Shown here piece by piece: positions 28,984 to 34,190 of a stretch of DNA of 51,329 nucleotides. The stretch covers positions 1 to 51,329 of the forward strand of contig JAGWRX010000123.1 of the NCBI GenBank assembly GCA_028876395.1. Direction: 5' to 3'. The notes under the pieces were generated by a model, which saw only the letters and a program-made list of their open reading frames with translations, had not been told where the DNA came from and did no database searches. Source of the stretch: Acidobacteriota bacterium (GTDB lineage Bacteria > Acidobacteriota > Terriglobia > Terriglobales > Acidobacteriaceae). The position numbers were made by a program, and so were the translations under genes. Numbering within the stretch: the first letter of the stretch is position 1; the number at the start of each line of letters is the position of its first letter.

Positions 28984-29176
28984 GACTTTATTGCATCATG
29001 ATCCTTTAAAAAATACCTTGATTCGCGTAAGGAAATTTTCAGGATTCCGCTCAACGCAGATTTAAGACAGTACCCCCGTAACCCGCCAAACTACGCCCGT
29101 AAGTTAAAATAATCAATGGGCCAAGGCCGATCTTTTTTGCGCAGTGAGCGCAAGCACAGCAAGGAGTTTTACCCTT

Positions 29177-29737
29177 ATGGCGATTCCCGCCACTCAAATG
29201 CGTCCGGGCATGATCATCAAGCACAACGACCAGTTGCACCTGGTCTTCAAGGTGGAGCACCGCACGCCCGGCAACCTGCGCGCCTTCATCCAGGCCAAGC
29301 TGCGCAACCTCAAGTCCGGCGCCATGTTCGAGCATCGCTTTCGCTCCGCCGACGCCATTGAGCGCGTGGTGGTGGACGAAGTGCCCATGGAGTTTCTCTA
29401 CTCCGACGGCGATGACTACTATTTCATGAATCCCGAGGACTATGAGCAGACCGTGCTCAAGGGCTCCACGCTGGGCGATGCCGTGGAATACCTCACGCCC
29501 AACCTGCAGATCAAGGTGAGCTATCACGACGGCCAGGCCGTGGGCATCGAACTGCCGGGAACCGTCGAGTTGACCGTCGTCGAGACCGAACCGGGCCTCA
29601 AGTCCGCCACCGCCTCCAGCGTCACCAAGCCCGCCAAGACAGAGACCGGCCTCGTGGTCCAGGTGCCGCCCTTCATCAACGAAGGCGAAAAGATCCGCGT
29701 GGACACCAGCGAAGGCGCCTACCTGAGCCGCGCGTAA
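29177..29737 (+). CDS. efp: Translation elongation factor P
   Basis: EF-P rescues ribosomes stalled at consecutive prolines. The 186-residue protein starts at the ATG at 29177 with AAGGAG upstream. It has the three usual beta-barrel domains: KOW-like (residues 1-65), central (70-125, YYFMNPEDYEQTVL) and C-terminal OB (130-186, VQVPPFINEGEKIRVDTSEG). The loop that reaches the peptidyl-transferase centre reads HRTPGNLRAF, so the residue at the E. coli Lys34 position is Asn33 instead of a modifiable Lys or Arg. The gene marks the return to chromosomal base composition after the accessory island. Confidence 0.95.
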   Translation: MAIPATQMRPGMIIKHNDQLHLVFKVEHRTPGNLRAFIQAKLRNLKSGAMFEHRFRSADAIERVVVDEVPMEFLYSDGDDYYFMNPEDYEQTVLKGSTLGDAVEYLTPNLQIKVSYHDGQAVGIELPGTVELTVVETEPGLKSATASSVTKPAKTETGLVVQVPPFINEGEKIRVDTSEGAYLSRA

Positions 29738-29760
29738 TCCTGCCTGCAAATCAAAATAGA

Positions 29761-29792
29761 AAAGGCCACCGCCCTCAAGCGGTGGCCTTTTT
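29761..29792. terminator. Bidirectional rho-independent terminator (efp / serA)
   Basis: Stem GGCCACCGC/GCGGTGGCC with a six-base loop, an A-run on the left and TTTTT on the right. It lies between the convergent ends of efp and serA and has a T-run for both directions. Confidence 0.9.
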
Positions 29793-29820
29793 CATGGATG
29801 CAGACATGAACGAGCCGCAG

Positions 29821-31635
29821 TTACAGCTGCACCAGCTTCGCCTCGATCAGTGCCTCGATCGTTCCCAGAGCCTCCAGCACCGTCGCGGAAACCGGCGCGT
29901 CCACCTGCACCACGGCCAGAGCCTTCACCGGCTTGGCGCCTGTGCGCTCGCGGCCCAGTGCAAAGTTGGCGATGTTCACTCCGTGCTCGCCCAGGATGGT
30001 GCCGATCTTGCCGATCACGCCCGGCACGTCGAGGTTGCGGCAGACCAGCAGGTTGCCTTCGAGCGGCGCCTCGATGTCGATGCCGTTGAACTCCAGCAGC
30101 CGCGGCTGTTCGCCGTGGATCACCGTCGCGCTGGCGTGACTTGTTCCCGCCGCCGCATGCAGCTCGATGGTCAACACCGTGCCTGCGCCGCCGCGAGCGC
30201 TCTCCTGCTTCTCTTCGTGCACACGGATGCCGCGCTCCTGGGCCACCGCCGCGGCGTTGATGCGGTTCACGTTCTCCGAGCCCTGCAGCAGTCCTTCAAT
30301 AGCCGCGTTTCGCACGAGGTCTGTCTTGGCCTCGGCCAGCGCGCCGCCATACACAAGGTCAATGGCCTCGATGCCACCCTTGCCCGTCTGCGCCAGGAAC
30401 GATCCGAGCCGCCCGGCCAGGTCGATATAGGGCGCCAGTTGCACGTATTCCTCATGGCTCAGCGAAGGCAGGTTCACGGCATTCTGCACCACGCCCAGCT
30501 TCAGATACTCGCGCACCTGCATGGCGATCTGCACGCCCACGGCCTCCTGCGCCTCGGCCGTGGAACCGGCGATGTGCGGCGTGAGCATCACGTTGTCGAG
30601 CCCGAAGAAGGGTGAGTCTTTAGGCGGCTCCACGGTCAGCACGTCCAGCGCCGCGCCGGCCACCTGCCCGCTCTTCAAAGCCGCCACAAGCGCGGCCTCG
30701 TCCACCAGCTCGCCGCGCGCACAGTTGATGATGCGCACGCCCTTCTTCATCGCCGCCAGCGTTTTGGCATTGATGATTCCCGTGGTCTGCGGCGTGAGCC
30801 CCACGTGCAGCGTCAGGTAGTCGGAACCGGCGATCAGCTCATCCAGCGTCACCAGCTTGATACCGCTTTCGCGCGCCACTGCGGCCGACACAAACGGATC
30901 GCTGCCGATGATTTCCAGCCCAAAGCCCCTGGCCCGCTTGGCAACTTCAAGGCCGATCCGGCCCAGACCCAGAATGCCCAGCGTCTTGCCGCGCAGCTCC
31001 GTGCCCTGCAGCGACTTCTTCTCCCACTTCCCGGCGTGCATCGATGCATTGGCCGCGGGCACCTTGCGCGCCAGATCGATCATCAGGCAGATGGTCAACT
31101 CCGCCACGGCCACCGCATTCGCGCCCGGCGTGTTCATCACTACAATGCCGCGCCGCGTGGCTGCATCGGCGTCAATGTTGTCCACGCCCACGCCTGCGCG
31201 CCCGATGACGCGCAGCTTGGGTGCGTGCTCCATCAGCGCATCGTCCACCTGCACGGCAGAGCGCACCACCAGCGCATCGGCATCGGCCAGGGCGCCGGTC
31301 AGTCCGTCCTTCAACTGGTCGTGCGTCAACACTTCCCACCCCGGCTCGGCCGCAAACACGGCCAGCGTCGCCGGAGACACCTTCTCCGCCAGAACAATCT
31401 TCATCTTTTCCCCTTTGCCTTGCTGCGCAGGTTCGTACTCGTCAAAGCGGATACCGTGCTTCTCGCACAGGAGCTCGAACATCCGCACCACCGCTGCATG
31501 CGGCTTGCCCTCGCCCCGCTCGTACTTGGTGAGCGAGTTGGGATGCACGCCCAGCCGCTCGGCCATCTCGTATTGGTAGAGGTCAAGCTGCCTGCGTGCA
31601 ATCAGCAGCTTTTCCCCAAAACTCAGTTCGGGCAT
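29821..31635 (-). CDS. serA: D-3-phosphoglycerate dehydrogenase with in-frame N-terminal HTH (XRE) domain
   Basis: First step of serine synthesis, oxidising 3-phosphoglycerate with NAD. Residues 78-604 match a full long-type enzyme of 527 residues: GRAGVGVDNIDADAA, the NAD loop GILGLGRIGLEVAKR, INCARGELVDEAAL with the catalytic Arg, MLTPHIAGSTAEAQE with the catalytic His, an intervening ASB domain and a C-terminal ACT domain (VQVDAPVSATVLEALGTIE). Residues 1-77 are a Cro/CI-type helix-turn-helix (YQYEMAERLGVHPNSLTKYE) in the same frame with no stop. AAAGGGG precedes both the ATG at 31635 and an internal ATG at 31404, so a fusion of 604 residues and a plain SerA may both be made. The first site lies inside the end of the upstream aminotransferase gene. 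Confidence 0.93.
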   Translation of the reverse strand: MPELSFGEKLLIARRQLDLYQYEMAERLGVHPNSLTKYERGEGKPHAAVVRMFELLCEKHGIRFDEYEPAQQGKGEKMKIVLAEKVSPATLAVFAAEPGWEVLTHDQLKDGLTGALADADALVVRSAVQVDDALMEHAPKLRVIGRAGVGVDNIDADAATRRGIVVMNTPGANAVAVAELTICLMIDLARKVPAANASMHAGKWEKKSLQGTELRGKTLGILGLGRIGLEVAKRARGFGLEIIGSDPFVSAAVARESGIKLVTLDELIAGSDYLTLHVGLTPQTTGIINAKTLAAMKKGVRIINCARGELVDEAALVAALKSGQVAGAALDVLTVEPPKDSPFFGLDNVMLTPHIAGSTAEAQEAVGVQIAMQVREYLKLGVVQNAVNLPSLSHEEYVQLAPYIDLAGRLGSFLAQTGKGGIEAIDLVYGGALAEAKTDLVRNAAIEGLLQGSENVNRINAAAVAQERGIRVHEEKQESARGGAGTVLTIELHAAAGTSHASATVIHGEQPRLLEFNGIDIEAPLEGNLLVCRNLDVPGVIGKIGTILGEHGVNIANFALGRERTGAKPVKALAVVQVDAPVSATVLEALGTIEALIEAKLVQL

Positions 31636-31641
31636 GCGCTC

Positions 31642-32817
31642 TTACCCCTTTGTGGCGTCCGCGTAGACCTGCTGCGCCGCCGCCACTGCCTGCCCATACT
31701 TCACTGGCAGCTTCAGTGTGTCCTTGGCGATGTGCTCCATCGCTCCAAGGAATGCGATCGTGTCCAGATAGTCAAAGAATCCGAGGTGCGCCACGCGGAA
31801 GATCTTGCCCTTCATCTCGCCCTGTCCGTTGGCGATCACGGACGCGAACCGCGTCTTGAGCGCCTTCACCACGTCGCTCGAATCCATCCCCTCGGGCACT
31901 GCCACCGCCGTGGCTGCCGCCGCCGGCGCCGTGGGCGCAAACAGCGTAAAGCCCAGCTCCACCAATCCTGCGCGCGTGGCCGCCGCGTTCACCTGCGCGT
32001 TGTCCACCAGCGCAATGCGGCCCTTTTCGAGGTCGCCGCCCGCCTGCCCGGCTATGTAATCCAGCGCCGCGCCGAGCCCGGCAATCAGCGCCACCGCTGG
32101 CGTGTAGGCGCTCTCGCCCTTCACCGCGTTCTTGCGCTCCTTGCGCAGGTCAAAGTAGTAGCGCGGATTCTTCGACTTCTCCATCGCCGCCCACGCCTTT
32201 TCGCTCACGCTCAGGTAGGCCAGCCCCGGCGGAATCATGACCGCCTTCTGCGAGCCGCCGATCAGGATGTCGATGCCCCAGCCGTCCACGTCGAAGTGCG
32301 TCGTGCCCAGCCCGGTGATGCCGTCCACTACAAGCAACGCCTCGCTGCCGGCTTCCTTGATGATTTTGGCGACCGCTTCCACGTCATGCCGCACCGCGGT
32401 CGAGGTCTCCGTGCCCTGCATGAAGACGGCGCGATGCTCCGGCTTCAGCGCCTTGCGCACCTGTGCCAGGTCAAACGTCTGGCCATAGGGAGCTTCAACC
32501 ACGTCCGCTTCGCAGCCAAAGGCCTTGGCCAGGCCCACCCAGCGCTCGCCAAATTTACCTGCCGTCAGCACGAGCACGCGGTCGCCCGGCGACGTCAGGT
32601 TCGATACCGCCGCCTCCATCGCTCCCGTGCCGGAAGAAGACAGCAGCAGCACGTCGTTCTGCGTACCCACAAAGACCTTCAACTGCGCCAGCACCTTCTG
32701 GTAGAGGGCGCGAAACTCAGGGGTGCGGTGGTGCATGTCGGCCGCAGCCATGGCGAACTGGGCGGCGGGAAGCAGCGGGGTCGGACCGGGCGTAAACAGG
32801 CGCGTTTTGCGAATCAT
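31642..32817 (-). CDS. Class V PLP aminotransferase (serine/alanine-glyoxylate aminotransferase type)
   Basis: A pyridoxal-phosphate enzyme of 391 residues. It begins LFTPGPTPLLP, typical of alanine-glyoxylate/serine-pyruvate aminotransferases, and shows SSGTGAMEAAVSNL for the phosphate, LLVVDGITGLG with the PLP Asp and IGGSQKAVMIPPGLA with the Schiff-base Lys near residue 193. It stands 6 nt before the HTH-serA gene, so it may serve as the phosphoserine or serine-glyoxylate aminotransferase of this pathway. GAGGAG precedes the ATG. Confidence 0.9.
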   Translation of the reverse strand: MIRKTRLFTPGPTPLLPAAQFAMAAADMHHRTPEFRALYQKVLAQLKVFVGTQNDVLLLSSSGTGAMEAAVSNLTSPGDRVLVLTAGKFGERWVGLAKAFGCEADVVEAPYGQTFDLAQVRKALKPEHRAVFMQGTETSTAVRHDVEAVAKIIKEAGSEALLVVDGITGLGTTHFDVDGWGIDILIGGSQKAVMIPPGLAYLSVSEKAWAAMEKSKNPRYYFDLRKERKNAVKGESAYTPAVALIAGLGAALDYIAGQAGGDLEKGRIALVDNAQVNAAATRAGLVELGFTLFAPTAPAAAATAVAVPEGMDSSDVVKALKTRFASVIANGQGEMKGKIFRVAHLGFFDYLDTIAFLGAMEHIAKDTLKLPVKYGQAVAAAQQVYADATKG

Positions 32818-32870
32818 TTTTCTCCTCGTTCTGGACTGGCGGCAGAGAGCAGGCCAGCCGTGACAATCAC

Positions 32871-32899
32871 AGAATACACATTATTGTGGTTTTTGTGAA
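32871..32899 (-). promoter_or_regulatory. Candidate sigma-70 promoter of the aminotransferase-serA unit
   Basis: On the minus strand TTCACA and TATTCT stand 17 nt apart, in an AT-rich stretch 54 nt before the aminotransferase start codon. Match to consensus is moderate. Confidence 0.5.
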
Positions 32900-33018
32900 T
32901 TACGAGCCTGTGCAAAACCGGACTGAATGGATGCGGCAGACGCAACGCGGCAGGGATGGGGAAATCGGATCGGGAAGGGGTTTTTGGTGTGGCTGGGCTT
33001 CTGGGGGGCAAAAGCATC

Positions 33019-33047
33019 GGGGGAATGCTGGCAAGCTGCATTCCCCC
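33019..33047. terminator. Terminator-like hairpin after the FecR-domain gene
   Basis: Perfect ten-bp stem (GGGGGAATGC/GCATTCCCCC) with a nine-base loop, 28 nt beyond the stop of the FecR-domain gene on the minus strand. A short T-run (CTTTTG) follows in that direction. Confidence 0.75.
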
Positions 33048-33074
33048 AATGTTAAACAATGCTAAAGGCGCTGT

Positions 33075-34190
33075 TTAGCGATGGCCGCCGCCGCCCCCAC
33101 CGCCGTGGAAGCCTCCGCCACCGCCGAATCCGCCTCCGCCGTGGAAGCCGCCGAAGCCACCGCCGCCACCCGCACGGAGTCCGCCGCCAAAGCTGCCGCC
33201 ATGGAAGCTGCCGCCATGGAAGCCGCCAAAGCCGCCGCCGTTATGCAGGCCGCCCACATGGATGGGGCCGCCACGAGGACGTACACCGAGCCCAGCCTGG
33301 GATCCGAACGAAGTGCCGTAGTTATGCATTCCGCCATAGCCGCCACCGCCATAGTATCCGCCGCCGTAGCCGCCATAGTAACCGCCGTAGAGGCCGCCGT
33401 AGGGTGGGTAGAAGCCGAAGCCGAACGGACTCCAGAACGGGCCGCCGCCGATGAATGTGTAATCCATGGCGTAGGGGTCCCAGTACCAGCCGGGATCGAA
33501 GTTCTGGTCATCGGCATACTGGCCGGCCACCTGCTGGTTATCTTCGGCCAGGTACTCCGAGCGCAGGCTGCTCCAGTTGTAGAGGTCATCCTTGGCGGTC
33601 TTCACGTTGAAGTTCGCCGGCTTTTCCTTGGCCAGCGGCTTGGCGTCCGGCCCGGGGGCAAGCAGGAGTTCGTGGTGATTCTTCACCACTCTGTACTTTC
33701 CCGGTCTCAGTTCCACCGCGGCTTTGCCTGTGAAGACCATGGCCATGGGGTTGTTGGCGTCAAACTCGTAGTACCCATTTTTGACCAACTGCGTTACGAC
33801 GCCGGCGTCAATGATTTCGAGATCGTTCTCCGGATGGATCTCGTCCACTTCCACGCCGGCGCGGCCGTGCAGCAGTTCGACCTGGGTCAGGGTGAGGCCG
33901 GGGGAAATCATCTTCACGGCGCTGTGGTCATCGAGGCGCAGGAACACGCCCGGCGTCAGTAGCAGCTCAACTTTGCCCGTATTGGTCGTCAGCACTTCGC
34001 CGGGATTGAGCTGGGTGTCGCCCACGCTCTTGGTGGTCAGTTGCTGTCCCTCTAGAAATGCCGAACCCTCAACGTAATTCAACGCGCCGGGCTGGGGCAT
34101 AACTCCGTTCTGGGGAGTATCGGCGCCGAAAGCCGGCGCACTGCAAATTCCAAGGCCAAGTAGCAGGATCGTCATCGATTTGAGATTCAT
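33075..34190 (-). CDS. Exported FecR-domain protein with Gly-rich C terminus
   Basis: A 371-residue protein with signal peptide MTILLLGLGICSAPAFGA. Residues about 35-190 have the FecR-like beta pattern: EGSAFLEGQQL, LNPGEVLTTNTGKVELLLTPG, FLRLDDHSAVKM, VELLHGRAGVEVDE. A Trp/Tyr segment (DPGWYWDPYAMDYTFIGGGP) leads into a tail of GGYGG, GGFHGG and GGSFHGG repeats with almost no other residue types. No ferric citrate genes are near, so a FecI/FecR signalling role is unlikely; surface or matrix binding is possible. A long opposite-strand frame here is a by-product of the repeats. Confidence 0.8.
   Translation of the reverse strand: MNLKSMTILLLGLGICSAPAFGADTPQNGVMPQPGALNYVEGSAFLEGQQLTTKSVGDTQLNPGEVLTTNTGKVELLLTPGVFLRLDDHSAVKMISPGLTLTQVELLHGRAGVEVDEIHPENDLEIIDAGVVTQLVKNGYYEFDANNPMAMVFTGKAAVELRPGKYRVVKNHHELLLAPGPDAKPLAKEKPANFNVKTAKDDLYNWSSLRSEYLAEDNQQVAGQYADDQNFDPGWYWDPYAMDYTFIGGGPFWSPFGFGFYPPYGGLYGGYYGGYGGGYYGGGGYGGMHNYGTSFGSQAGLGVRPRGGPIHVGGLHNGGGFGGFHGGSFHGGSFGGGLRAGGGGGFGGFHGGGGFGGGGGFHGGGGGGGHR

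Follow-up and report, generated by a model that had tools for sequence, protein, structure and literature searches.

Synthesis of serine is usually described as being controlled by feedback on the phosphoglycerate dehydrogenase SerA and by separate regulators. The locus studied here, which lies in a 51,329-nucleotide stretch of acidobacterial DNA (the window), raises the question of whether SerA itself could act as the regulator of its own operon. An earlier note, made from the letters alone, had claimed that an XRE-type helix-turn-helix (HTH) domain is fused in frame to a full-length SerA at this locus. A single open frame of 604 codons (31635..29821, minus strand) joins the HTH without a stop codon to a complete type 1 SerA, and the surrounding features are as follows:

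31642..32817, minus strand: class V aminotransferase, first gene of the operon (Pfam Aminotran_5)
31435..31635, minus strand: XRE-type HTH domain, residues 1–67, with the recognition helix at about residues 32–39 (profile, constraint and model)
31405..31434, minus strand: variable linker, residues 68–77 (omega about 0.46 for residues 67–77; pLDDT below 50)
29821..31404, minus strand: type 1 phosphoglycerate dehydrogenase SerA, with an internal ATG at 31404 (TIGR01327 and Pfam domains)
29760..29791, minus strand: hairpin after serA resembling an intrinsic terminator (sequence)

Pfam HTH_3 (PF01381) matches residues 13–50 of the fusion with 30.0 bits as compared to a cut-off of 23 and is followed by 2-Hacid_dh, 2-Hacid_dh_C, PGDH_inter and ACT. 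The phosphoglycerate dehydrogenase model TIGR01327 spans residues 79–604 from one end of the model to the other (569.7 bits, cut-off 454). According to these profiles, the substrate, NAD, ASB and ACT domains of a type 1 enzyme are present on the same chain, and the combination of an enzyme with a DNA-binding domain within one intact chain corresponds to the layout of a trigger enzyme. The nearest solved structure to the SerA part, by sequence as well as by fold, is the Mycobacterium tuberculosis enzyme. No other SerA was matched in the source genome at E ≤ 0.001, this genome being 87% complete.

To look for relatives, GTDB species genomes were scanned with an alignment of the HTH; the search patterns derived from the source HTH, so that near relatives were reached. 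The scan yielded 80 loci for analysis out of 85 relatives found. Reading proceeds from the HTH into SerA in frame across the junction in all 80 loci, including 70 intact genes, five that stop at a contig edge and five that are interrupted farther down in SerA (L117, L130, L153, L162 and L167; L030 is the same gene as L130). The latter interruptions are probably assembly gaps, because the genes concerned contain unresolved bases (N), and all ten edge-cut or interrupted loci were kept in the junction count. Thus, profile matches and the open junction bear out the claimed fusion, the same HTH–SerA order recurs throughout the relatives, and the case that would have spoken against it, namely a stop codon or a base shift separating the HTH from serA, occurs in none of them. 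A frameshift or assembly artefact at the junction is thereby ruled out. Together, the comparison supports a long SerA with a predicted direct regulatory role.

The fusion was found in Terracidiphilus, Occallatibacter and Acidicapsa, mostly in genome bins assigned to Acidobacteriaceae or Acidobacteria but also in the named strains Terracidiphilus gabretensis S55, Occallatibacter savannae AB23 and Acidicapsa dinghuensis 4GSKX. Of 250 sampled genomes of the family, 25 possess the HTH and fall into 3 of 79 genera, and some of the 225 scored as lacking it are incomplete. In a sample of the phylum outside the source genus, SerA matches mostly begin at residues 60–80, which corresponds to the start of SerA, with few extending further up and some beginning later. 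The surroundings of 27 head-less SerA loci, drawn from 10 further genera of the family, showed no separate HTH gene within about 1.5 kb on either side of serA, the best weak HTH matches having E values of 0.28 or worse. In a quick tree, 77 fused SerAs form a single clade as compared to the 27 head-less ones (SH-aLRT 99). The fused genomes probably share one ancestor, and genome counts are therefore not independent events; moreover, many of the genomes are bins, and the genome sets of the separate scans overlap in species. The fusion is old and has been kept.

The enzyme part is predicted to have retained its function. Residues R307, E336 and H354, which we take to be catalytic, and glycines 223, 225 and 228, presumably of the NAD site, are invariant in 67 fused proteins, and the fusion should therefore still be an enzyme. 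D536 and N554 are likewise invariant in the 67 proteins. According to our reading of the alignment, they correspond to Asp463 and Asn481 in the serine site of the M. tuberculosis enzyme, whereas the third side chain of this site, Tyr461, is replaced by Asn534. The M. tuberculosis protein (1ygy, 3dc2) shares all four domains with the fusion but differs in this residue and in having no DNA-binding head. The kept residues make sensing of serine by the ACT domain possible, and serine is the likely signal.

The same gene could give rise to two proteins. The earlier note had pointed to AAAGGGG in front of both the first and the internal ATG, and both motifs are confirmed at the following positions:

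31645..31651, minus strand: AAAGGGG, ribosome-binding site of the long form, within the last codons of the aminotransferase gene, 9 nt before ATG 31635
31410..31416, minus strand: AAAGGGG, internal ribosome-binding site, 5 nt before ATG 31404

The longest exact Shine-Dalgarno match separates the internal start poorly from its surroundings, with 66 of 87 distinct genes having only 4 nt, and a codon test and pairing energies were therefore used. Across 82 of the 87 genes (five containing N were excluded), the internal start has a median energy of pairing with a generic anti-Shine-Dalgarno tail of −8.4 kcal/mol, compared with −6.5 for the long start and −2.5 for the remaining in-frame ATGs, although in 40 of the 82 genes at least one other in-frame ATG pairs equally well. 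The linker varies in length and sequence, and an A/G-rich motif resembling AAGGGAG is kept at a constant distance from the internal ATG. Glycines within the last four codons before this ATG are encoded by GGA or GGG in 88 of 93 cases as compared to 1145 of 4811 elsewhere in the genes (Fisher p = 2e-47, uncorrected for relatedness). The remaining five glycines use GGC, four of them in the Acidicapsa group, which has a weaker motif, and one being the second glycine in L127.

Alternatively, only the long SerA might be made, the ribosome-binding site at the junction being a relic of the former start of serA. In agreement with this, the joint Met-Lys-Ile/Val coincides with the SerA start in head-less relatives, and in the source gene pairing is slightly stronger at the long start (−8.0 kcal/mol) than at the internal start (−7.8 kcal/mol). 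However, over the 82 genes the median favours the internal start, and the purine motif and the A or G in the third position of the glycine codon have been kept despite a strongly variable linker. In addition, the internal codon is ATG in all 87 genes, whereas 6 of 27 head-less relatives have TTG or GTG at the aligned position. We therefore regard a relic as unlikely. The internal start looks real and under selection, and the idea of two starts for one gene has gained from the invariant ATG, the purine motif, the codon bias and the median pairing energy taken together.

Whether a long SerA could bind DNA depends on its head. Omega values calculated over 936 pairs are 0.119 for the HTH and 0.128 for the catalytic part, as compared to 0.457 for the linker. 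Across 47 sequences, V30, H31, N33, S34, Y38, E39, E42 and G43 do not vary, and K37 hardly does. AlphaFold2 models the head as a four-helix domain with a pLDDT of 94, which together with the profile match places it among XRE/HTH_3 domains. Judging from these substitution patterns, selection has kept the head as a DNA-binding domain. Among the 50 folds listed by Foldseek for the head are P22 c2, C.BclI, SinR and MqsA, with weak E values of 0.005–0.05. The modelled head is a bare four-helix XRE domain that has no extra dimerization part, from which we infer that the heads would be brought together by the SerA oligomer. In the full-length model, the packing of the domains is unreliable (pTM 0.62; pLDDT below 50 for linker residues 66–75), and the model superposes poorly on known structures.

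Among solved structures, the HTH of MqsA (PDB 3fmy, 3gn5 and 3o9x) comes closest to the head in sequence. N33 and K37 of the head align with N97 and R101 of MqsA (numbering matched by us), the residues through which MqsA binds its operator ACCT-N3-AGGT, according to PMC4901048. That is, the asparagine is kept and the arginine is replaced by a residue of like charge. The operator of MqsA differs from the candidate site of the fusion, which has CACA/TGTG (see below), and the match is limited to the HTH. The fusion is not an MqsA antitoxin, since PF15731 (27.3 bits, cut-off 30) and TIGR03830 (33.7 bits, cut-off 61.8) remain below their thresholds and match in the HTH part only.

The earlier note had proposed the region upstream of 32817 as a place for binding, and a candidate operator is indeed found there:

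32865..32900, no strand assigned: candidate operator, 36-bp palindrome with its core at 32868–32897 (conservation, genome scans and position)
32871..32899, minus strand: TTCACA-17 nt-TATTCT, a sigma-70-like promoter lying within the candidate operator and agreeing with 9 of 12 consensus bases

The core comprises four half-sites, CACA-N5-CACA-N4-TGTG-N5-TGTG. Its consensus form, ATTCACAwAAAyCACAnnnnTGTGTATTmTGTGATT, is present in 72 of 72 upstream regions (the source and 71 of the 80 loci), a count that is not independent, as the consensus was read by eye from these regions and then scored on them. Nine loci were excluded because the start of the aminotransferase gene was unaligned or was preceded by at most 150 nt. 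Regarding the 16 fixed bases, 55 sites have all of them, 16 miss one and one misses two. The central gap measures 4 in all 72 regions though 2–7 was allowed, and base conservation drops outside the 36 bp. As the promoter lies inside the candidate operator, a bound protein would block RNA polymerase. Two sigma-70-like sites occur in 29700–33100 versus a mean of 0.4 in shuffled sequences, the second one being on the plus strand at 32860–32887. A CRP site has the form TGTGA-N6-TCACA; here the half-sites are oriented oppositely (TCACA...TGTGA), which rules out a CRP-like site.

A whole-genome search of the 250 family genomes detected the exact 16-base pattern in 23 of 25 genomes with the HTH versus 1 of 225 without it. 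The two exceptions with the HTH (G001 and G032) both have the operator with one mismatch. Many of the genomes in this search and in that of the genus belong to the same species. Of 51 sites fetched from the family and genus searches, 50 lie 24–125 nt before the start of an aminotransferase gene, and the exception is the match in the HTH-less genome. Within the genus, the operator with at most one mismatch is present in 74 of 80 genomes and in 42 of 42 good ones, and the six genomes without a site are at most 84% complete; a reversed-pattern control gave zero matches. A single site occurs in 73 of the 74 genomes; G588 carries two, on contigs C190 and C152, the second site being 74 bases from the start of its contig. 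In two genomes (G219 and G288), operator and fusion are on separate contigs, the break falling within the aminotransferase gene or directly behind it. A first sample contained five same-genus genomes without a whole fusion (G003, G014, G024, G029 and G030; 73–88% complete), in which only pieces of SerA or of the HTH, or none, were found; the operator is present in all five with at most one mismatch. At L167 (also L055, genome G007), where SerA of the fusion is interrupted by unresolved bases, the operator deviates at 2 of the 16 fixed bases. By comparison, no operator was found in the 128–220 nt before the serA-adjacent aminotransferase gene of seven head-less relatives, at least 6 of the 16 bases being wrong. 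In the source genome, there is no second site with at most one mismatch, and allowing two mismatches adds one further site, L242 (contig C29:2527-2556 of genome G000), which is about the chance expectation (roughly estimated as about one). Thus, a wider regulon was not found among full sites with up to two mismatches in the source genome. The upstream regions, the family and genus scans and the position of the site suggest this conserved candidate operator as a putative specific DNA target of the head.

It could be argued that the operator is the target of a different transcription factor common to the clade, and that the HTH of SerA has a different role or weaker targets. Indeed, the contrast of 23/25 with 1/225 may represent a single gain in evolutionary terms, in which case the weight of the evidence rests on the retention of exact half-sites and spacing, and fusion and site could be independent gains in one ancestor. 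However, about one site per genome, located at the HTH's own gene pair, is the trace expected of a dedicated autoregulator, and the HTH has retained DNA-contact positions under strong constraint, so that we consider another owner of the operator rather improbable. That the HTH instead serves oligomerization or stability, having lost DNA binding, and that only the short form is enzymatically active, has no direct support and is very hard to reconcile with a near-invariant recognition helix, a matching candidate operator and the invariance of the presumed catalytic and NAD-site residues in the fused proteins.

We therefore favour, as the probable explanation, an autoregulating single-target trigger enzyme, in which the long SerA would repress the aminotransferase–SerA operon and a short SerA would be made from the same mRNA. 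Sequence comparisons support the elements on which this scheme is built, namely the fusion, the constraint on its head, the candidate operator, the position of the latter and its link with the head, and apparent selection on the internal start. According to the scheme, one mRNA would be translated into the long SerA with its XRE head and, from the internal start, into a SerA of normal length. The long form would have a single target in each genome, namely the palindrome that overlaps the operon's promoter. There it would block RNA polymerase, and the enzyme would thereby repress its own synthesis. The heads would be paired via the SerA oligomer. For type 1 SerA of M. tuberculosis, a tetramer as well as a dimer and an octamer are described in PMC6300728, and four heads of a tetramer would be a natural fit for the four half-sites. 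Affinity for DNA would be set by the occupancy of the enzyme, most likely by serine at the ACT interfaces and possibly by substrate or NADH. The proportion of long and short chains would adjust the number of heads on each tetramer, with the short SerA keeping up the supply of enzyme while diluting the heads. Binding, repression, formation of two products, the match of tetramer and operator and the nature of the signal are what we infer for this system. More tentatively, and with somewhat less confidence than doubt, we suggest that a SerA tetramer reads the four-part operator with four heads whose number is set by the two starts. If so, repression would depend jointly on the level of the enzyme, on ACT-bound serine and on the ratio of long to short chains.

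Among proteins for comparison, NadR and BzdR carry DNA-binding heads of the XRE type and PutA carries a ribbon-helix-helix, and we know of no HTH fusion of human PHGDH. Enzymes doubling as transcription factors are referred to as trigger enzymes, and PMC8249747 names five of them in Escherichia coli (BirA, NadR, PepA, PutA and PyrH), none of which is from the serine pathway; PutA is described there as a single-target repressor of its own locus. Like NadR and PutA, the fusion is an enzyme that is also, by prediction, a transcription factor, but enzymes and pathways are different. BzdR consists of a DNA-binding head on a shikimate-kinase-like domain without remaining activity (PMC3602430). The likeness to the fusion lies in an N-terminal DNA-binding domain that is connected via a linker to a metabolic enzyme or former enzyme. 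In contrast to the inactive enzyme part of BzdR, the fusion keeps the residues presumed to be catalytic and is the only SerA found in its genome. It does not belong to the BzdR family, as it has SerA domains instead and no shikimate kinase match is among the Pfam matches listed. Human PHGDH has been described as a nuclear transcription factor (PMC13028801). No description of an HTH–SerA fusion was found in the literature searched, in which subscription journals were thinly covered, and neither 'helix-turn-helix' nor 'DNA' occurs in the review on phosphoglycerate dehydrogenase that was searched for these words. Thus, while trigger enzymes are already known, HTH–SerA would be a new form among them. 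Sensor, enzyme and repressor are apparently combined in one chain with one target, which has been kept across a clade of soil bacteria. HTH–SerA may therefore provide a compact case of enzymes becoming transcription factors while still active, and it bears on the questions of how a repeated operator is recognised by an oligomeric enzyme and of how one gene with two starts can yield a mixture of regulator and enzyme.

The partner gene in the operon ends 6 nt before the start of the fusion. An aminotransferase gene precedes the fusion in 79 of the 80 relatives, and the remaining locus begins 77 nt from a contig edge. None of 40 genomes of the genus had a match above the cut-off of either of two SerC models; in the source genome, the sub-threshold match is the aminotransferase encoded by 31642–32817. 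Since each of these models passed its cut-off in just 4 of 14 well-known control genomes, absence of SerC is suggested rather than proved. The aminotransferase is probably a phosphoserine transaminase that substitutes for SerC. Its closest relatives of solved structure are annotated as putative aspartate and serine-glyoxylate aminotransferase.

Downstream of serA and convergent with it, the gene for elongation factor P (29144–29737, plus strand) encodes all three EF-P Pfam domains, and the terminator-like hairpin is situated between the two genes. In several relatives (L118, L115, L146 and others), aminotransferase and fusion genes are separated by 100–290 nt, and these long gaps contain short, imperfect repeats, for example AGCTAGAAGCTAGGAGCTG or CACTGTTCACTG. 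In some of the relatives with long gaps, GGAG of the repeat stands as the ribosome-binding site of the long form.
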